Assembly (NCBI GenBank): GCA_024641655.1
Contig: JAHECR010000017.1
Location: 1 to 64,000, forward strand
Direction of reading: 5' to 3'
Source: Acidimicrobiaceae bacterium
GTDB taxonomy: Bacteria; Actinomycetota; Acidimicrobiia; Acidimicrobiales; UBA8592
Length of the DNA: 64,000 nucleotides
Shown here: piece by piece, positions 26,071-59,250 of the stretch
How the letters are laid out: every line of letters starts with the position of its first letter
How positions within the stretch are numbered: the stretch's first letter is position 1
The notes under the pieces: model-generated
Told to the model about the DNA's origin: nothing
Seen by the model: the letters and a program-made list of their open reading frames with translations, nothing else
The model's database searches: none
Made by a program: the position numbers and the translations under genes

Positions 26071-26588
26071 GATGCAGCTCCTTCGGTGGAGGTGGACTTG
26101 GCGATCTCTCGGAGTTTGTCCGCTGCCAGCAGGACCCCGTTGACGATGCTCTCGTAACCGGTGCACCTGCAGATGTTGCCCGACAGCGCCTCCCGGATGG
26201 CTTCCTCGTCGGCGTCTGGCTGGTCGCGCAGCAGCGCGACAGTGGCCATGACGAAGCCCGGCGTGCAGAACCCGCACTGGAACCCGTGACGTTCCCAGAA
26301 CGCCTCCTGGACCGGGTGGAGCCCGTCGGGTGGGGCCAGTCCCTCCACCGTCGTGACCTCGCCGCCGACGGCCTGGACCGCGAGCATGAGGCACGACCGG
26401 ACCTCGTCACCATCGACGAGGACGGTGCACGCACCACACACGCCGTGCTCGCACCCGAGGTGCGTGCCGGTGAGCCCCAGATCGTGACGGAGGAAGTCGG
26501 CGAGCGTGGTGCGTACCTCGGCGTCGGCTGCACGTGCCTGGCCGTTGACGGTGAGCTCGATGTGGATGGCTCCGTCGGTATTGGTCAT
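26067..26588 (-). CDS. Molybdenum hydroxylase small [2Fe-2S] subunit (CoxS-like), set 1
   Basis: A 173-aa electron-transfer subunit with two [2Fe-2S] clusters. The N-terminal ferredoxin-like cluster uses CEHGVCGAC plus the Cys in RSCLML; the second helical cluster uses CGFCTPG and CRCTGY. It passes electrons from the Mo site in the large subunit to FAD in the medium subunit. Starts with an ATGA overlap to the FAD-subunit gene and ends with a GTGA overlap to the large-subunit gene, so the three are strictly coupled in the order M-S-L. Confidence 0.95.
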   Translation of the reverse strand: MTNTDGAIHIELTVNGQARAADAEVRTTLADFLRHDLGLTGTHLGCEHGVCGACTVLVDGDEVRSCLMLAVQAVGGEVTTVEGLAPPDGLHPVQEAFWERHGFQCGFCTPGFVMATVALLRDQPDADEEAIREALSGNICRCTGYESIVNGVLLAADKLREIAKSTSTEGAAS

Positions 26589-27469
26589 CGGGTTGCTCCT
26601 TGCGATGCGGTGGCGCGTGCTGCGGCGGTGGTCAGTGCCCGAGCGACGAGCACACCCGCGAGGTGTTTGCGGTAGGTGGCTGATCCGTGGACGTCGCTCG
26701 AGGGGTGGAGCCCTGCGACCGCTGCGGAGGCGGCGAGGGCGATGGTCTCGTCGCTGAGCGCCTTCCCGACGAGAGCCGCCTCGGCCTCGGTGGCGCGGAT
26801 CGGGCGATCGCCGACGCCGGACAGGGTGATGCGGCAGTCGCTGGCGAGGCCGCCGTCGATGGCCACCGTGGCCGCGACGCCCACGAGGGCGAAGTCACCG
26901 TGGCGCCGTGCGACCTCCACGAACGCCGACCCCGTCGACGGGGGTGTGACCGGAATTCGCACGTCGACGAGGATCTCGTCGTCTTCGATCGCAGTGGTGT
27001 AATGGCCCTGGAACAGGTCGGCAGCGCTGATCGTGCGTTCGCCGCCGGGCCCGACCACCGTCACGCTGGCATCGAGCGCCACCATCACCGCGGGGATCTC
27101 CGCAGCGGCGTCGGCGTGCACGATGCTGCCGCCGACGGTGCCTCGGTTGCGGATGGCGACGTGGCCGATGTGGGGCAGCGCCTCGGCCAGCAGGGGAAGG
27201 TGGCGGGTCACGATGTCGGATCGCTCGGCGTCGCGTTCGGTCACCATCGCGCCGATGGTGACGACGTCGTCGTCGACGCCGATGTGCGACAGCGAGGCGA
27301 TACCGCCGAGGTCGATGAGCGCCTCGGGCCGCGCGAGCCGCAACGACAGCAGGGGCATGAGGCTCTGCCCGCCGGCGAGCACCTTGGCATCGTCGCCGTG
27401 CTCGGCGAGCAGGCCGAGGGCCTCCTCCACCGTGGCCGGCGCGTGGTAGGCGAACTTTGGTGGCTTCAC
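26585..27469 (-). CDS. Molybdenum hydroxylase FAD subunit (CoxM-like), set 1
   Basis: A 294-aa medium subunit. FAD-contact motifs AGGQSLMPLLSLRLA and RNRGTVGGS lie where CoxM has AGGHSLLP and TIGG, followed by the CO-dehydrogenase flavoprotein C-terminal domain. GTG 27469 with AGGGGGTGTTTCC upstream; both CoxM paralogs at 37433 and 55572 also start VKP.(K/P)F or similar, supporting this start. First gene of the minus-strand M-S-L operon, divergent from the second importer operon across 177 bp. Confidence 0.94.
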   Translation of the reverse strand: MKPPKFAYHAPATVEEALGLLAEHGDDAKVLAGGQSLMPLLSLRLARPEALIDLGGIASLSHIGVDDDVVTIGAMVTERDAERSDIVTRHLPLLAEALPHIGHVAIRNRGTVGGSIVHADAAAEIPAVMVALDASVTVVGPGGERTISAADLFQGHYTTAIEDDEILVDVRIPVTPPSTGSAFVEVARRHGDFALVGVAATVAIDGGLASDCRITLSGVGDRPIRATEAEAALVGKALSDETIALAASAAVAGLHPSSDVHGSATYRKHLAGVLVARALTTAAARATASQGATR

Positions 27470-27563
27470 GGAAACACCCCCTGAGTGGGCCGAAGCCTCT
27501 GGCAGCGATCGGCGAGCGGCACCGTAGCAGAGGCTCCTGGCGGCGGCATCTGCGCCATATGAC

Positions 27564-27591
27564 TTGCACGGCTGCAACCATGCGGTAGTGT
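27564..27591 (+). promoter_or_regulatory. Candidate promoter/operator in the CoxM1-importer gap
   Basis: TTGCAC (27564-27569) and TAGTGT (27586-27591) are 16 bases apart and could be -35/-10 boxes for the importer operon. The -35 is embedded in a dyad TTGCA-CGGC-TGCAA (27564-27568/27573-27577), which could be a small operator. Match to consensus is weak; this is inference. Confidence 0.25.
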
Positions 27592-27646
27592 CCGCGTCGG
27601 CGTCCACCGGACGTTCGACCTGTTCTCAGAGGGGGGAACACTCCGA

Positions 27647-28969
27647 ATGAACCTTCGCAAGCTCTTGGCCATGCTGGCCGTATTCACCTTGTTCGTGACC
27701 GTCATGACCGCATGCGGCGATGACGACACCACCGCATCGGACGACGGAGCCACCGACAGCACCGATGGCAGCGGTGGTGACTGCACGCCACCGACGGGGA
27801 CCGAGATCCTCATCGGGCAGGTCTCAGCGCAGACCGGCGGGCCCGCCGGGGGCACGCTCACCTTGGCGCGCGACACCCTCGACGCCTGGGTCCAGCACAC
27901 CAACTGCAACGGCGGCGTCGCCGGACACCCCGTCAAGGTAAGCCAGCGTGACACCCGCACCGATCCCGCCGCGGGGGGCACCGCGGTGCAGGAGCTGCTC
28001 GACGAGGGCGTCGTCGCCATGGTCGGATCCGCCGACACGACCACGATGGGTCAGTGGCAGGCGCTCGTGACCGAAGCCGGCGTGCCGCTCATCGGCGGCA
28101 CCGTGTACAACGCAGCCGACATCACCCTTCCGGGCATGTACGGCGTCATGACGACGGTCACGCAGATCCTCTACTTCGAGATCTTCGCCCTGAAGAACGC
28201 CGGGGCCACCAAGGTCGCCTCGCTGCTGTGCAACAACGCCGACGTCTGCCTCCAGGCACGCGCCGGTGTGCTCGCAGCGGGTGAGGCGTTGGGTGTCGAG
28301 ATCGTCTACGACGACGTCGCCGACAACACGCCGGGAACCGACTACACCGCGCAATGCCTCGCCATGAAGAACTCCGGCGCCGACGCCGTGCTGCCCTTCG
28401 TGGACAACGCCGGTCTCGCGACGAACTGCGCCCAGCAAGGCTTCGAGCCCATCTACGGTGGCTCGGAAGTCTCGATCGGTCTCGACGACGTGGCGGCCAC
28501 GCCGGCCTTCCAAGGCCTCTCGGCGCCGATGTCGGCATTCCCGTACTTCCAGGAGTTCCCGACGACGGCGGCGTACTTCGACGCCATCAAGACCTACCAC
28601 CCCGAACACGCCGAAGGCGGCGACCTCTACGGCCAGGCCCACATGGCATCGAGCCACGTCTGGGTCGCCGGCGAGACCTTCAAGAAGGCGGTCGAGAATG
28701 CTGCGGTGGCCGAGGACGCCGTGGTGACCGCTGAGGACGTGCACCGCGGTCTGGCGATGTTCAACGGCGAGACGCTGAGCGGCCTCATCCCGCCACGGAC
28801 CTACGCCGACTATCTCGCCGATCCAACGGTGCCGAACCCGCAGAACGACTGCGTGTTCCTGTACCGGATCAACGACGGCAAGTACGAGACCACCCCGGCC
28901 GGCGAGCTGCGTTACTACTGCCGCAGCGACATCGAGGCCGGGAACGAAGCCGGAATTCCAGTCGGCTGA
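27647..28969 (+). CDS. HAAT substrate-binding lipoprotein (LivJ-like), system B
   Basis: A 440-aa binding protein. The signal peptide ends at C23 in VTVMTAC (lipobox with Thr/Ala), then an Asp/Gly/Ser/Thr-rich tether to about residue 43. The mature part opens with EILIGQVSAQTGGPAGG, the normal first strand and loop of Leu/Ile/Val-binding-type proteins, and contains several cysteines. Distinct in sequence from the system A binder. It heads the plus-strand operon with livF and two LivHMG fusions and is separated from livF by a large hairpin. Ligand unknown. Confidence 0.93.
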   Translation: MNLRKLLAMLAVFTLFVTVMTACGDDDTTASDDGATDSTDGSGGDCTPPTGTEILIGQVSAQTGGPAGGTLTLARDTLDAWVQHTNCNGGVAGHPVKVSQRDTRTDPAAGGTAVQELLDEGVVAMVGSADTTTMGQWQALVTEAGVPLIGGTVYNAADITLPGMYGVMTTVTQILYFEIFALKNAGATKVASLLCNNADVCLQARAGVLAAGEALGVEIVYDDVADNTPGTDYTAQCLAMKNSGADAVLPFVDNAGLATNCAQQGFEPIYGGSEVSIGLDDVAATPAFQGLSAPMSAFPYFQEFPTTAAYFDAIKTYHPEHAEGGDLYGQAHMASSHVWVAGETFKKAVENAAVAEDAVVTAEDVHRGLAMFNGETLSGLIPPRTYADYLADPTVPNPQNDCVFLYRINDGKYETTPAGELRYYCRSDIEAGNEAGIPVG

Positions 28970-38448: not shown

Positions 38449-40773
38449 ATGAGCACACCCACCGGCGCCCGTTTCGTGGGTCAGTCGATCAAGCGTCGTG
38501 AGGACCCGAGGCTCCTCACCGGTCACGGTCGCTACGTCGGCGACATCACGGTGCACGATCAGCTCGAGCTGGCGTTCCTGCGCAGCGACGTCGCCGCCGG
38601 CGACATCCGTTCCATCGACACCAGCGCCGCCGAGGCGTTCCCTGGTGTGGTCGCGGTGTACACCGGCAAGGATCTCAACCCCATTGCCGGTGACATCTGG
38701 ACGACCACCTCCGGACCGCCCGCGTACGGGCCGCCGATGCACCCGCTGGCTGACACCGATGTTCGCTACGTCGGCGACCCGATCGCCGTGGTGATCGCGA
38801 AGAACCGCTACATCGCCGAGGATGCCTGCGAGCTCATCGTGGTCGACATCGAGGCGCGCCGGGCCGTGGTCACGCTCGAGGACGCACTCGCTGTGGACGC
38901 GCCGTCGGTGCACCCCGAGCTCGGCTCGAACGTCGTCGACGAGCCTTCGCCGCCGCACCCGGAGTGGGATGCGACGATCGCTGCTGCCGCGCACGTGGTC
39001 GAGAAGCGGTACGCGATGACCCGCGTGACCAACGTCCCGATGGAGGGCCGCGGCATCCTGGCTCACTACGACAAGTGGGCCAACGAGCTGCGGGTGTGGG
39101 CCTCGACCCAGAGCCCCCACGAGATCAAGGCCTGGTCGTCGCGGTTGCTGCAGATTCCCGAGAACCGGGTCAAGGTCGAGTTCGGCGACGTCGGCGGCGG
39201 TTTCGGCCAGAAGATGTACCCCACCCGCGACGAGGCAGCCGTGTTGCTCGCTGCCAAGCTCGTCGGTCGGCCGGTCAAGTGGATCGAGGACCGGCGAGAG
39301 AATCTCATTGCCGCCAACCAGGCCCGCCACGACATCTCCGACCTGACGATGGCCGTGGACGAAGAGGGAACGATCACGGCCTTCTCCTTCGACCTCATCA
39401 CCGGGGTGGGGGCCTACCCCGCCGGCGGTGCCGTCGGCGGCGGCGGCATGCTCGTCGGCATGATGTTCGCCGGGCCCTACCACACCCCCGCAGCCATGGG
39501 TTTCAACGCCAAGACCTTCGTGACCAACACGTGCGGATGGGGCGCTTTCCGGGGTCCCTGGGCGGTCGAGACGATCTCGCGCGAGCAGATGATCGACGCC
39601 GTCGCCCGCAAGGCGGGCATCGATCCCCTCGAACTGCGTCGCCGCAACATCATCCGGTCCGAGGAGCTGCCCTACACGGGCCCCAGTGGCATGCCCTACA
39701 TGCAGATCACCCCGCAGGAGACGCTCGAGCAGGCAGCGTCGATGCTGGGTTACGACGCCTTCCGGGCCGAGCAGGAGGCCGCCCGCAAGGAGGGCCGCTA
39801 CCTGGGGGTCGGTATCAGCGCCATGATCGAGCCGTCGGCGGTCGGCTTCGGCGCCTGGGCGACCGAGGCGGCGACCGTGCGCATCGACGTCAACGGGCTC
39901 GTCGAGGTGCAGATGGGCACCGGGAGCCACGGCCACAGCCTCGAGACCACGATCCCGCAGGTCGTGGCGGAGCATCTCGGCTGCAACTTCGAGGACGTCG
40001 TGCTCCGCCAGGGCGGCGATACGCCCTATGGGCCCGGTACCGGTGGTAGCCGCAGCGCGGTGATCGCCGGCGGTGCCGCGCAGACGGCGTCCACGACCCT
40101 GCGCGAGAAGGTCGTGGCCATCGCCGCGCACCTGCTCGAGGCCAACCCCGAGGACCTCGAGGTGGCCGATTCGAAGGTCTCGGTGAAGGGCACTCCCGCC
40201 AAGACCGTCAGCTTCCGTGAGCTCGCCGGCCTCGCGTACCTGAACCCTGCCGAACTCCCTCCCGACACCGAAGCCGGGCTCGAGTCCACCTCGCGGTTCT
40301 CGCCGCCGATGCCGTTCACGTGGTCGAATGCCACCCACATCTGCACGGTCGAGGTCGACGTGGAAACCGGCATGGTGAAGCTCCTGCGCTACATCGTCAG
40401 CGAGGACTGCGGCACCATGATCAACCCGATGGTCGTCGAGGGCCAGATCGCCGGTGGCGCAGTGCAGGGCATCGGCGGGGCGCTCTTCGAGGAGATGGCC
40501 TACGACGCCGACGGCAACCCGCTTGCCACGACATTCCTCGACTACCTGACGCCCTCGTCGACCGAGCTGCCCGATTTCGAGTACGGCCACATCGAGACGC
40601 CCTCGATCAGCCTGGGCGGCTACAAGGGCCTCGGCGAAGGCGGTGCGATCGCGGCACCCGCTGCGGTGGCCAACGCCATCAACGACGCGCTGGCCCCGTT
40701 CGGTGCCGAGTGTCTCCAGTTCCCGATCACCCCCACCCGGGTGCTGCAGGCGATCGCCGACGCACAGGGCTGA
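38449..40773 (+). CDS. Molybdenum hydroxylase large subunit (CoxL-like), set 2
   Basis: A 774-aa Mo-pterin subunit. GGGFGQKMY at the Mo domain, catalytic E730 in GLGEGGA, PMEGRG in the N-terminal half. The active-site loop reads GWGAFRGPW (365-371 from the second Gly): no Cys, so not a form I CO dehydrogenase. ATG 38449 with AAGGAG (38434-38439). Partners CoxM2/CoxS2 are on the opposite strand. Followed 9 bp later by an LLM oxidoreductase gene, suggesting a shared pathway. Substrate unknown. Confidence 0.93.
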   Translation: MSTPTGARFVGQSIKRREDPRLLTGHGRYVGDITVHDQLELAFLRSDVAAGDIRSIDTSAAEAFPGVVAVYTGKDLNPIAGDIWTTTSGPPAYGPPMHPLADTDVRYVGDPIAVVIAKNRYIAEDACELIVVDIEARRAVVTLEDALAVDAPSVHPELGSNVVDEPSPPHPEWDATIAAAAHVVEKRYAMTRVTNVPMEGRGILAHYDKWANELRVWASTQSPHEIKAWSSRLLQIPENRVKVEFGDVGGGFGQKMYPTRDEAAVLLAAKLVGRPVKWIEDRRENLIAANQARHDISDLTMAVDEEGTITAFSFDLITGVGAYPAGGAVGGGGMLVGMMFAGPYHTPAAMGFNAKTFVTNTCGWGAFRGPWAVETISREQMIDAVARKAGIDPLELRRRNIIRSEELPYTGPSGMPYMQITPQETLEQAASMLGYDAFRAEQEAARKEGRYLGVGISAMIEPSAVGFGAWATEAATVRIDVNGLVEVQMGTGSHGHSLETTIPQVVAEHLGCNFEDVVLRQGGDTPYGPGTGGSRSAVIAGGAAQTASTTLREKVVAIAAHLLEANPEDLEVADSKVSVKGTPAKTVSFRELAGLAYLNPAELPPDTEAGLESTSRFSPPMPFTWSNATHICTVEVDVETGMVKLLRYIVSEDCGTMINPMVVEGQIAGGAVQGIGGALFEEMAYDADGNPLATTFLDYLTPSSTELPDFEYGHIETPSISLGGYKGLGEGGAIAAPAAVANAINDALAPFGAECLQFPITPTRVLQAIADAQG

Positions 40774-54333: not shown

Positions 54334-54405
54334 CCCCCCGACCGCCCCTGTAAGGCATGCCGAACTGGTAGCGTGCCCGGACGGCCGCTGCCCAAGGAGC
54401 ACGCG

Positions 54406-55476
54406 ATGATTCTCGACACACTCGATCTCGACGCAGCAGCCTTCGCCGCAGGTACAGGATGGCAGGTCAAACCCGAGGGCGCCTGCCGGGGCGATGTCTG
54501 CGTGCCGCTCGGGGGTGGGCCCTTCGACGTGCGTGACGCCGCGGAGCGGCTCCGCATGGCGTTGGTGCACGATCCCGATGCGGGCGTGTGGGCGTTGGGA
54601 CCCGACACCGTCTCGGGTCGCGCCCTAGCGACCGCCGAGGCGCCCGAGCTCGTGCTCCCCGACGTCGACGGCAACGAGTTCCGGCTCTCCTCGCTGCGAG
54701 GAACCAAGGTGGTGCTCGTCTCCTGGGCGCCCTATTGAGGGTGCCGCATGGACCTGCCCGGGTGGCAGGTGCTGCGCAACGAGCTCGCCCCACAGGGGAT
54801 CGAGATCGTGACGGTCGGCCTCGAGATGGGTGGCGTCGACGTCCTGCGTCCGTACATCGACGACGCTGCGCCGGAGCATCCGTCGCTGATCGACGAGGCA
54901 CATGTGATGGACGCCTTGTTCGGCGTCACCAACATCCCCGAGTCGATCTGGATCGACGAGCAGGGGCAGATCGTCCGGGTACGCGACGCCGCGGTGCCGC
55001 CGCCGGTGATGCGTCCCAATGCCGACGGTGAGCTGGAGCCCTACGGGATGGGTGGCAGGTACGGGTTCGACGCCGATGCCGATGCGAACCGCCTGCGCGA
55101 GTGGGCCGCCAACGGCGCATCGAGCCGGTACGTGCTCACTCCCGAGGAGGTCATCGCCCGATCCGTGCCGCGGCCGATGTCGGTCTCGCAGGCCGCAGCG
55201 CACTTCGAGCTGGCCCAGCACCTCTGGCGGAGCGATGGATTCGGAGAGCGCACGCTCTCGCACTTCGCGCAGGCGCACACCCTCCAGCCCGACAACATCA
55301 CGTACAAGCGCCAGGCCTACAGCGCGTACAGCTACGGCCGCAGCGATGGGTCCGAGGTCAGCCGCTTCCGCCAGGCACCCCAGGAGGGCGAGCCATGGCC
55401 CTTCGTGTCGGACTTCACCGCGGACATGGCCCGCCTGCGCGCCGAGCGCGATGCGCAGAAACAACAACAGCAGTGA
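54406..55476 (+). CDS. Candidate selenoprotein: thioredoxin/TlpA-like redoxin with in-frame UGA
   Basis: A continuous 356-codon frame if TGA at 54736-54738 (codon 111) is read as selenocysteine. The junction reads VLVSWAPY-U-GCRMDLPGW, placing U exactly at the redox-active end of strand one in a thioredoxin fold (U-G-C, cf. Cys in Cys-containing relatives). Before it lie the redoxin strands LVLPDVDGNEFRLSSLRG; after it come IVTVGLEMGG and the cis-Pro region NIPESIWIDEQGQIV. A C-terminal helical region (about 240-320) looks TPR-like. A SECIS-like hairpin follows the UGA. ATG 54406 with AAGGAGC. Without readthrough the fold is cut in half, so two separate genes are unlikely; a nonsense mutation remains possible. 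A cytoplasmic thiol/selenol reductase or peroxidase role is inferred. Confidence 0.72.
54736..54778 (+). promoter_or_regulatory. SECIS-like hairpin directly after the in-frame UGA
   Basis: After the UGA (54736-54738), ACCTGCC (54752-54758) pairs perfectly with GGCAGGT (54764-54770) around the loop CGGGT. The loop begins 20 bases after the UGA and has a G in its first two positions, both within the published range for bacterial SECIS elements (family knowledge). A lower stem (54742-54747 with 54774-54778) can form with an internal loop. Confidence 0.5.
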
Positions 55477-55571
55477 CCACTCGCGACCGTACGAATTGAG
55501 TGACGGGAGCCGTCGCGTCGGCCGCTGATGTGGTACATCGGTATCGCACACAACTCGACCAGAGGGAACAC

Positions 55572-56447
55572 GTGAAGCCACCCCCATTCGAATACGTCGC
55601 GCCGAAAACGCTCGACGAGGCCCTCGCCGCGCTCGCCGACGCCGGAGAGGACGCCAAGGTGATGGCCGGCGGCCAGAGCCTCATCCCGCTCCTGTCGCTC
55701 CGACTCGCTCGCCCGACGGTCGTCATCGACCTCAACGGGGTCGCCGACCTGTCGGGCATCTCGGTCGGCGACGGCCTGCTCCGCATCGGGGCGACCACCC
55801 GGCACCGCGCCGTGGAACGCTCCCCTGAGGTCGCCGCGGCGGTGCCGCTCATCGCCGAGGCGATGCCCCTCATCGGCCACGTCGCCATTCGGTCCCGAGG
55901 CACCTTCGGAGGCAGCCTCGCCCACGCCGATCCTGCGGCCGAGCTGCCCGCGGTCGCCCTGGCGCTCGACGCGGTGTTCACGATGGCCAGCCGGGATCGC
56001 GGCGAGCGCACCGTAGGCGCGGCCGAGTTCTTCGAAGGCTTCTTCACCACGGCGATCCAACCCGACGAGATTCTCACCTCGGTGTCGTTCCCGATCGCGG
56101 GCGACGGAACCGGCCAGGCCATCGAGGAGGTCGCACGGCGTCATGGCGACTACGCGATGGTGGGCGCAGCGACGTCGTTGACCATCAGCGGTGGCACCAT
56201 AAGCGACGCCCGCCTGGCATTGCTCAACGTGGACGAGAAGCCGGTCCGCGCCGGCGAGGCCGAGGCCATGCTGGTCGGAGCAGCCCCGTCAGCGGACCTG
56301 TTCGCCCGAGCCGCCGAGGCCGCCACCCGCGATCTCGAGCCGAGCAGCGACCTGCACGCCACTCCCGCGTACCGCCGCAAGGTCGGGTCGGTGTGTGTGC
56401 GACGTGCCCTTCAGCGGGCAACCGAACGAGCGGAGGCAAACGCGTGA
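55572..56447 (+). CDS. Molybdenum hydroxylase FAD subunit (CoxM-like), set 3
   Basis: A 291-aa medium subunit with AGGQSLIPLLSLRLA and RSRGTFGGS FAD motifs (Phe instead of Val/Ile in the second) and the flavoprotein C-terminal domain. GTG 55572 with AGAGGGAAC upstream, consistent with the VKP start of the other two paralogs. First gene of the plus-strand set 3 operon, overlapping the small-subunit gene by GTGA. It lies 95 bp after the candidate selenoprotein gene. Confidence 0.94.
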   Translation: MKPPPFEYVAPKTLDEALAALADAGEDAKVMAGGQSLIPLLSLRLARPTVVIDLNGVADLSGISVGDGLLRIGATTRHRAVERSPEVAAAVPLIAEAMPLIGHVAIRSRGTFGGSLAHADPAAELPAVALALDAVFTMASRDRGERTVGAAEFFEGFFTTAIQPDEILTSVSFPIAGDGTGQAIEEVARRHGDYAMVGAATSLTISGGTISDARLALLNVDEKPVRAGEAEAMLVGAAPSADLFARAAEAATRDLEPSSDLHATPAYRRKVGSVCVRRALQRATERAEANA

Positions 56448-56929
56448 GCACCCCCATCTCCATCCGACTGACGCTGAACGGCACAGCCCGCGAGGCCGCC
56501 GCCGAACCCCGCAAGACGCTCGCGGACTTCCTCCGCGAGGACTGCGGCGCCACCGGGACCCACCTCGGTTGCGAGCATGGCGTCTGTGGCGCGTGCACGG
56601 TCATCGTCGACGGCGATCCGGTTCGCAGCTGTCTGATGCTCGCGGTCCAGGCGCAGGGCACCGAGATCACCACCATCGAAGGTCTCGCCGACGGCGACGA
56701 GATGAACCCGTTGCAACGCGCCATGAAGGCGGCGCACGGGTTCCAGTGCGGCTTCTGTACCCCGGGGTTCCTGATGAGCATCACTGCGATGCTCGACGAG
56801 AACCCCAACCCGTCCGAGACGGAGATCCGCGAGACGCTGTCGGGCAACCTCTGCCGTTGCACCGGCTACGAGAGCATCCTCAAAGGCGTCATCGGCGCCA
56901 TCACCGCCACCAACGGGAGCAACGCATGA
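56444..56929 (+). CDS. Molybdenum hydroxylase small [2Fe-2S] subunit (CoxS-like), set 3
   Basis: A 161-aa two-cluster subunit: CEHGVCGAC and the Cys of RSCLML; CGFCTPG and CRCTGY. GTG start overlaps the CoxM3 stop and its own stop overlaps the CoxL3 ATG. Very close in pattern to set 1 (same CEHGVCGACTV and GFQCGFCTPGF), closer than to set 2. Confidence 0.95.
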   Translation: MSTPISIRLTLNGTAREAAAEPRKTLADFLREDCGATGTHLGCEHGVCGACTVIVDGDPVRSCLMLAVQAQGTEITTIEGLADGDEMNPLQRAMKAAHGFQCGFCTPGFLMSITAMLDENPNPSETEIRETLSGNLCRCTGYESILKGVIGAITATNGSNA

Positions 56930-59250
56930 GCACCGTCGCAGCATCCATGCCCCAGCGCTATGTGGGTACCAGCGTCGAGCGTTCCGAGGATCAGCGCATC
57001 CTCACCGGGTCGGGTACCTATGTCGACGACATCAGCCTGCCGGCCATGGTGCACGCCACGTTCGTGCGCAGCCCGTTCGCGCACGCCCGCATCACCGGCA
57101 TCGACACGTCCGAAGCCGAGGCTCTGCCCGGCGTACACGCGGTCGTCACCGGTGAGGCGCTGCAGGCCATGCTCGATCCCGAGGCGCCCTCGCCAGGGGG
57201 ATTCGGGACCGCGCCCATGAAGTTCACGGTGTTGTGCACCGACAAGGTTCGCCTCGTCGGCGACCCCGTCGTGATGGTGATCGCCGACAGCCGCTACATC
57301 GCCGAGGACGCAGCGGAGCTCGTCGTCGTCGAGTACGAGCCGCTCCAACCCGTAGCGGACGCGGCCACGGCGCTTGACCCCTCGAGCGAGCCGATCTTCG
57401 AAGACCTGGGGCGCAACGTCTCCCAGGACGCGACCGTGCACGTTCACGGCGATGTCGATGCGGTGTTCGCCAAGGCCGACCGGATCGTCACGACCAGGAT
57501 CGAACAGCACCGCCATCAGAACGTGCCGATGGAGTGCCGCGGCTGCGTGGCCGACTTCGATCACGCTACGGGGCATCTCACCCAGCATTCTGCGAACCAG
57601 GGTGTGCACAGCGCCCGGAGCACCCTCGCGGTCCAGCTCGGTCTCGAACCGGACAAGGTCCGGATTCTCTGCAAGGACATCGGTGGCTCGTTCGGCCTGA
57701 AGAACGGCGCGAGCCGGGAGGAGATCGCCGTCGCGGCGGGCTCCCGGTTGCTCGGCCGGCCGGTCAAGTGGATAGAGGACCGAAACGAGAACCTGGCGTT
57801 CTCCGGCCACGCCCGTGAGGAGACCCTCGAGGTCGAGGCCGCGGTCAACGACGACGGCCTCATCCTCGGCCTGAAGGTGCGTATGGTTTGCGACACCGGC
57901 GCCTACCCGGCGATGGGCTCGATGCTCGGTGGCATCGTCGAGCGGATGATTCCGGGCCCTTACAAGATGGAGGCGCTGCAGTTCGAGTACGTGCCGGTCA
58001 TCACCAACAAGGCGGCCTATGTGGCCTATCGCGGACCGTGGGCGGCCGAGACGTTCACCCGTGAGCGCCTCGTCGACCAGATCGCCGACGAGCTCGGGAT
58101 GGACCGTGTCGAGATCCGCATGCGCAACATCGACTACCAGGGCGTCGATCCCGGGACGATGATCACCGGTTCGACCCTGAAGAGCTGCACCGTGCGCGAG
58201 TCGCTCGACACGTTGGTCGAAAAGATCGACTTCGCCGAGTTCCGGGCCCGCCAGGTCGCAGCGCACGCCGAAGGGCGCTACCTCGGGATCGGGGTCGCCA
58301 GCTACATCGAATCGGCGCCCGGTCCGTACAACGGTCGGCCACTTGGCCGCGAACGGATCAACGCAAAGCTCGACGACGACGGCACCGTGCTGGTCTTCAC
58401 CGGTCAGATGCCCCACGGCCAGAGTCACGAGACCACCTACGCCCAGATCGCCGCCGACGCCTTCGGCGTGGACTTCGACCAGGTGCGGATCGTGGTCGGT
58501 GACAGCGACGTCGTGCCTCCGGGCAACACCGGAGGCAGCCGGGGCGCGCCGATGGCCGGTGGCGGCACGCTGCATGCTGCTCGCCAGCTCCGGGGCAAGG
58601 TCCTCGACGTTGCCGCGCATCTCCTCGAGGCCAGCGTCGACGACCTCGAGATCGTCGACGCCAGCGTCGGCGTCAAGGGTGTGCCCACGAGCCGCAGAAC
58701 CCTCGCCGACATCGCCCTTGCCGCGAAGTCCGGTGACTTCCCCGACGAGGTCGACGCCGACCTGACAGTTGAGGTCAAGTACGAGGGTGGTATGGGTGGG
58801 TGGGCCGGGGGCACCCACTGCGCCATCGTGGAGGTCGACGTCGAGACCGGCCGGGTCCACATCGATCGCTATCTCGTCATCGAGGACTGCGGCCAGCTCA
58901 TCAACCCGGCGCTCGTGGACGGACAGATCTGCGGCGGCGTGGTCCAGGGCATCGGCGCGGTGCTGCTGGAGCGTTCGGCATACGACGAGGAGGCCAACTT
59001 CCTGGCCGGCACGTTCATGGACTACCTGTTGCCCTCCACCACCGAGGTGCCGCACATCGAGATCGTCCATCTCGAGAGCGTGTTCCTCGATGACGATGTC
59101 AACTTCCGCGGCGTCGGTGAGGGCGGCATGATCGTGTGCCCGCCAACGTTGATCAGCGCCATCGAGGACGCCTTGTCGCCCTTCGGTGTCCACATCACCG
59201 AACAGCACGTGCCCCCGCTGCGCATCCTGGAGATGATCGGCGCCATCTAG
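56926..59250 (+). CDS. Molybdenum hydroxylase large subunit (CoxL-like), set 3
   Basis: A 774-aa Mo-pterin subunit. Mo-domain motif GGSFGLKNG (Ser where set 1 and 2 have Gly), catalytic E732 in GVGEGGM, PMECRG in the N-terminal half. The active-site loop reads AAYVAYRGPW, with no Cys at the CO-dehydrogenase copper-ligand position. ATG overlaps the small-subunit stop. Last gene of a compact M-S-L operon and followed by hairpins. Overall more like set 1 than set 2, suggesting duplication. Substrate unknown; an aldehyde or N-heterocycle hydroxylase is typical for the family. Confidence 0.93.
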   Translation: MSTVAASMPQRYVGTSVERSEDQRILTGSGTYVDDISLPAMVHATFVRSPFAHARITGIDTSEAEALPGVHAVVTGEALQAMLDPEAPSPGGFGTAPMKFTVLCTDKVRLVGDPVVMVIADSRYIAEDAAELVVVEYEPLQPVADAATALDPSSEPIFEDLGRNVSQDATVHVHGDVDAVFAKADRIVTTRIEQHRHQNVPMECRGCVADFDHATGHLTQHSANQGVHSARSTLAVQLGLEPDKVRILCKDIGGSFGLKNGASREEIAVAAGSRLLGRPVKWIEDRNENLAFSGHAREETLEVEAAVNDDGLILGLKVRMVCDTGAYPAMGSMLGGIVERMIPGPYKMEALQFEYVPVITNKAAYVAYRGPWAAETFTRERLVDQIADELGMDRVEIRMRNIDYQGVDPGTMITGSTLKSCTVRESLDTLVEKIDFAEFRARQVAAHAEGRYLGIGVASYIESAPGPYNGRPLGRERINAKLDDDGTVLVFTGQMPHGQSHETTYAQIAADAFGVDFDQVRIVVGDSDVVPPGNTGGSRGAPMAGGGTLHAARQLRGKVLDVAAHLLEASVDDLEIVDASVGVKGVPTSRRTLADIALAAKSGDFPDEVDADLTVEVKYEGGMGGWAGGTHCAIVEVDVETGRVHIDRYLVIEDCGQLINPALVDGQICGGVVQGIGAVLLERSAYDEEANFLAGTFMDYLLPSTTEVPHIEIVHLESVFLDDDVNFRGVGEGGMIVCPPTLISAIEDALSPFGVHITEQHVPPLRILEMIGAI

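Follow-up and report, generated by a model that had tools for sequence, protein, structure and literature searches.

The thiol-disulfide oxidoreductases ResA, TlpA and StoA carry a CxxC active site in a thioredoxin fold. A selenoprotein family of related type is held in NCBIfam as the equivalog model NF041054, "ResA-like WAxxUGC motif-containing protein" (WAxxUGC_long), with a curated cut-off of 300 bits. Families with a UGC motif in a thioredoxin fold of the TlpA/AhpC-TSA type, as in the protein described here, are listed in a table of a 2026 review as "UGC-containing TlpA disulfide reductase family protein" (PMC13188914) and in a table of the 2008 GOS selenoproteome survey as "Prx-like (UGC-containing)" (PMC2398784); going by the names in these tables, both are probably either the same as NF041054 or a sister family. 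The NF041054 family is widespread in several phyla, yet no paper in the literature searched names the WAxxUGC motif. A plasmid search returned nothing beyond partial or ordinary TlpA matches. Selenocysteine (Sec) encoded by UAG is known in the Geodermatophilaceae (PMC5330540).

We analyzed a 64,000-nt stretch (the window) of contig JAHECR010000017.1 from an Acidimicrobiaceae bacterium. Standard gene calling yields two ORFs at 54406–55476, which lie in one frame and are parted by a single TGA at codon 111 (Table 1), as an earlier sequence-only reading had described; its expectation that ordinary gene prediction would split the gene is confirmed here. The read-through product, of ∼39 kDa, has 357 residues, one more than the 356 first given, with Sec at 111 and the surrounding protein reading VVLVSWAPY-U-GCRMDLPGWQ. 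It matches NF041054 with 411.2 bits over residues 1–342 and shares with that family the full-length match, motif, length, and UGA site; there is no essential difference, the motif being spelled W-A-P-Y-U-G-C in the window protein. The next-best NCBIfam models, ResA, TlpA, StoA, and DsbE, each score far under their own cut-offs, and the ResA family model NF002854 gives 55.6 bits against a cut-off of 170. The product of 54406–55479 is thus a member of the known selenoprotein family NF041054. Because the family is already in NCBI's library, the finding is correct yet ordinary, and the label "candidate" given in the sequence-only reading is too weak. The gene adds a clear example of an uncultured actinobacterial lineage that uses Sec.

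Table 1. Features of the selenoprotein locus (window coordinates)
Feature	Position	Strand	Remarks
Likely Shine-Dalgarno AAGGAG	54394..54399	+	Probable, read from the sequence; 6 nt between its end and the ATG
Selenoprotein gene, ResA-like WAxxUGC protein	54406..55479	+	Start ATG 54406; 357 codons + TGA stop 55477-55479; NF041054 match
N-terminal C-x4-C motif (Cys27, Cys32)	54484..54501	+	Invariant in Sec and Cys forms
AhpC-TSA / ResA-TlpA thioredoxin-fold domain	54634..54975	+	Residues 77-190; PF00578 41.1 bits; Foldseek ResA E 1e-10
TGA read as selenocysteine 111 (predicted), U-G-C motif with Cys113	54736..54738	+	Column: 116 TGA, 2 TAG, 9 Cys
Bacterial SECIS-like hairpin	54752..54770	+	Stem (A)CCUGCC / GGCAGG(U), loop CGGGU
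C-terminal helical TPR-like region	55177..55284	+	Residues 258-293; designed-TPR profile matches; model helices

An AlphaFold2 model built with 58 homologs (mean pLDDT 94.6, pTM 0.92) begins the active-site helix at residue 112, directly after Sec111, and its top PDB fold matches by Foldseek are ResA structures (TMt 0.74–0.77, E about 1e-10). In this model, a predicted ResA/TlpA fold, Sec111 occupies the N-terminal end of the active-site helix, with U-G-C replacing CxxC; alignment to 3kcm shows the UGC motif to be shorter by one residue. Fold, active-site position, and cis-Pro are common to the window protein and ResA, TlpA, and StoA, whereas the shorter U-G-C site and additional N-terminal and C-terminal domains set it apart. 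The claim that the fold runs unbroken across the UGA holds up: the cis-Pro region NIPESIWIDE is present, and Pro178 is invariant in the 58 homologs. So are Cys27, Cys32, residue 111, Gly112, and Cys113 in the homolog alignment, with Sec written as Cys. The TPR-like tail is recognized from matches to designed TPR proteins, with weak single-repeat scores, and from model helices at residues 258–277 and 281–293. The fold bears on one alternative that differs on function only, namely that the selenoprotein is a peroxiredoxin-type peroxidase and not a disulfide reductase. Both AhpC-TSA and Redoxin pass their Pfam cut-offs, and the GOS survey table gives a UGC family the name "Prx-like" (PMC2398784), but the best NCBIfam and PDB relatives outside the family are the ResA/TlpA/DsbE thiol-disulfide oxidoreductases, and we regard a peroxidase as an unlikely, though serious, possibility.

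Searching the fetched loci with the pattern xxDLPGW gave 127 distinct homologous sites, at which the active-site column holds TGA in 116, TAG in 2, and a Cys codon in 9 (6 TGC, 3 TGT). Seven more loci with SAHLPGW in place of xxDLPGW also carry TGA and lie outside this count. The TGA-bearing homologs come from several phyla, and paralogs on contigs C47 and C106 of the same genome have TGA at the same column. Among the cultured relatives with the gene is Pseudonocardia kunmingensis (L077). The genome encodes a tRNA-Sec with anticodon TCA (UCA) that scores 63.5 bits, above the model's gathering threshold of 47 bits, together with selA (386 bits) and selB (303 bits), adjacent on contig C50, and selD (371 bits) on contig C113. 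Sec in SelD is well known, and this selD carries its own in-frame TGA, at SHGAGUGCK. Among 60 relatives, selA was found in all 11 genomes at least 90% complete that have the TGA form, whereas the three Cys-form genomes at least 90% complete (G021, G041, and G042) have no selA above the cut-off; four TGA-bearing relatives without selA are each only 67–83% complete. In G041 the TGA reported by the search lies elsewhere, and the Sec column is TGC. The sequence-only reading had proposed inspecting the UGA column in relatives and searching the genome for selA, selB, selD, and tRNA-Sec, and both checks came out in favor of a selenoprotein with the UGA at a thioredoxin active site. The two situations it held to be fatal, a genome without selB or tRNA-Sec, and homologs with an unrelated residue and a nonsense mutation confined to this strain, are contradicted by the machinery and the column.

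Some of the homologous loci are irregular. The third paralog in the genome (L056, G000 C106:298854-299959) has TGA at the Sec column, and its frame breaks near residue 258–265 through a frameshift or an assembly error. In a homolog from a related genome (L060, G023 C176:10195-11168), the reading frame changes past the active site, and the gene is split. Two Cys-form copies in Frankia (L142 and L147) lie ∼2.5 kb apart; the Frankia genomes have a selA-like match above the cut-off, and their best matches to the tRNA-Sec model are tRNA-Ser.

The two TAG copies are in genomes labelled Blastococcus (L076 and L080, 5334-5336), and the remaining protein is intact in both. The tRNA-Sec of these genomes (L182 and L183; 66.4 bits with the Rfam model) has the anticodon CTA, owing to which ARAGORN labels it tRNA-Pyl. 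Because the TAG column and the CUA tRNA-Sec occur in the same genomes, codon and tRNA have changed together. The Blastococcus-labelled homologs combine TAG with tRNA-Sec(CUA), in line with the UAG-encoded Sec already described (PMC5330540), whereas the organism of the window uses UGA and UCA. The TAG copies are strong independent natural evidence for Sec at this column.

Shortly after the UGA lies a predicted SECIS hairpin of conserved structure, which starts ∼13 nt past the UGA and has a UGA-to-loop distance of 20 nt. For 116 of the 118 Sec-type sequences the minimum-energy fold contains each of the five core stem pairs that were tested, whereas seven of the nine Cys forms have none of them. 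Part of the stem is fixed by the conserved DLP-WQ residues. The codon for Leu117 ends in G in 116 of 118, while the codon six places downstream, also mostly Leu, varies freely. The two sides of the stem covary, CTG going with CAG and TTG with CAA (102, 0, 4, 8; Fisher p = 9e-10, in a test that ignores relatedness). In L066 both sides have changed, to CTC with GAG, which replaces Gln by Glu and keeps the pair. Taken by itself, the hairpin in the window has a folding energy that is not significant (z = −1.24), and an Rfam scan of the window gave no match.

If UGA stood for Trp or Cys instead, owing to an altered genetic code or to suppression of the nonsense codon, the Cys found at the column in some relatives would fit. 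This is very improbable, since UGA terminates the selenoprotein gene itself and other genes of the window, the genome has a tRNA-Sec(UCA), the codon tracks the tRNA-Sec anticodon in the Blastococcus-labelled genomes, and the hairpin of the Sec types is mostly lost in the Cys types. That the gene has been disrupted by a sequencing error or by a nonsense mutation that arose recently, leaving halves that are remnants or separate genes, would agree with the two called ORFs and with a draft assembly of 121 contigs but is already refuted by the conservation of TGA across phyla (116 distinct homologs and two paralogs of the same genome) and runs against the selection downstream of the TGA, so that its chance is negligible.

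Purifying selection acts on the part of the gene downstream of the TGA, where dN/dS is ∼0.19 against L010 and ∼0.29 against L055, the C47 paralog; this part is therefore translated and useful. As a control, ten other in-frame stops of the window pass a crude filter for coding on both sides. The in-frame stop of 54406–55476 is almost certainly read as selenocysteine, judging from these comparisons of sequence. It is very likely that the gene encodes a selenoprotein with Sec at UGA 111, a three-part thiol/selenol oxidoreductase whose Sec insertion is directed by the hairpin, and it would work by the redox cycle set out here. The column, machinery, hairpin, and model support the predicted Sec identity, SECIS, and fold, and we infer the catalytic cycle, the role of Cys27 and Cys32, and the substrate.

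In the proposed mechanism, SelB carrying Sec-tRNA-Sec (UCA) would recognize the downstream hairpin and place selenocysteine at codon 111. The product would be an oxidoreductase without an obvious signal peptide, composed of a small N-terminal C-x4-C domain, the ResA/TlpA thioredoxin fold, and the TPR-like helical tail. The Sec111 selenolate, seated where the active-site helix begins, would attack a disulfide or peroxide; Cys113 would resolve the adduct as a Se–S bond, and the Cys27/Cys32 pair or an external thiol would then reduce that bond. Of this cycle, the evidence supports only where Sec111 and Cys113 are placed, and the remaining steps we infer. The C-x4-C pair and the U-G-C center could even form an intramolecular selenol/dithiol relay within a single polypeptide, present in three Sec-containing paralogs of this genome and kept through the UGA-to-UAG recoding in Blastococcus, an idea that we offer tentatively and consider rather doubtful. 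We know of no such relay architecture from ResA-type proteins.

The selenoprotein gene is preceded by two SDR genes and followed by molybdenum-hydroxylase-type subunit genes, whose best NCBIfam names are glyceraldehyde dehydrogenase beta, gamma, and alpha, all under the cut-off. Across the neighborhoods of 72 loci we found no conserved partner beyond generic SDR, and the adjoining molybdenum-hydroxylase-type subunits recur at only one other locus, in a close relative. Because this gene order is kept in one close relative only, it says little about function. The subunit genes directly after the selenoprotein gene (FAD, 2Fe-2S, and Mo types) span 55572–59250, and the minus strand carries another FAD-type subunit gene at 26585–27607.

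Of the ten other in-frame stops that pass the coding filter, a TGA at 28967 was considered as a Sec codon, since U-F-S-C looked motif-like, and was rejected: it is the normal stop codon of a gene for an ABC-transporter substrate-binding protein and is followed by a terminator-like repeat. At 40771 on the plus strand, an in-frame TGA lies between coding-like open frames of 872 and 335 codons, possibly adjacent genes in one frame.
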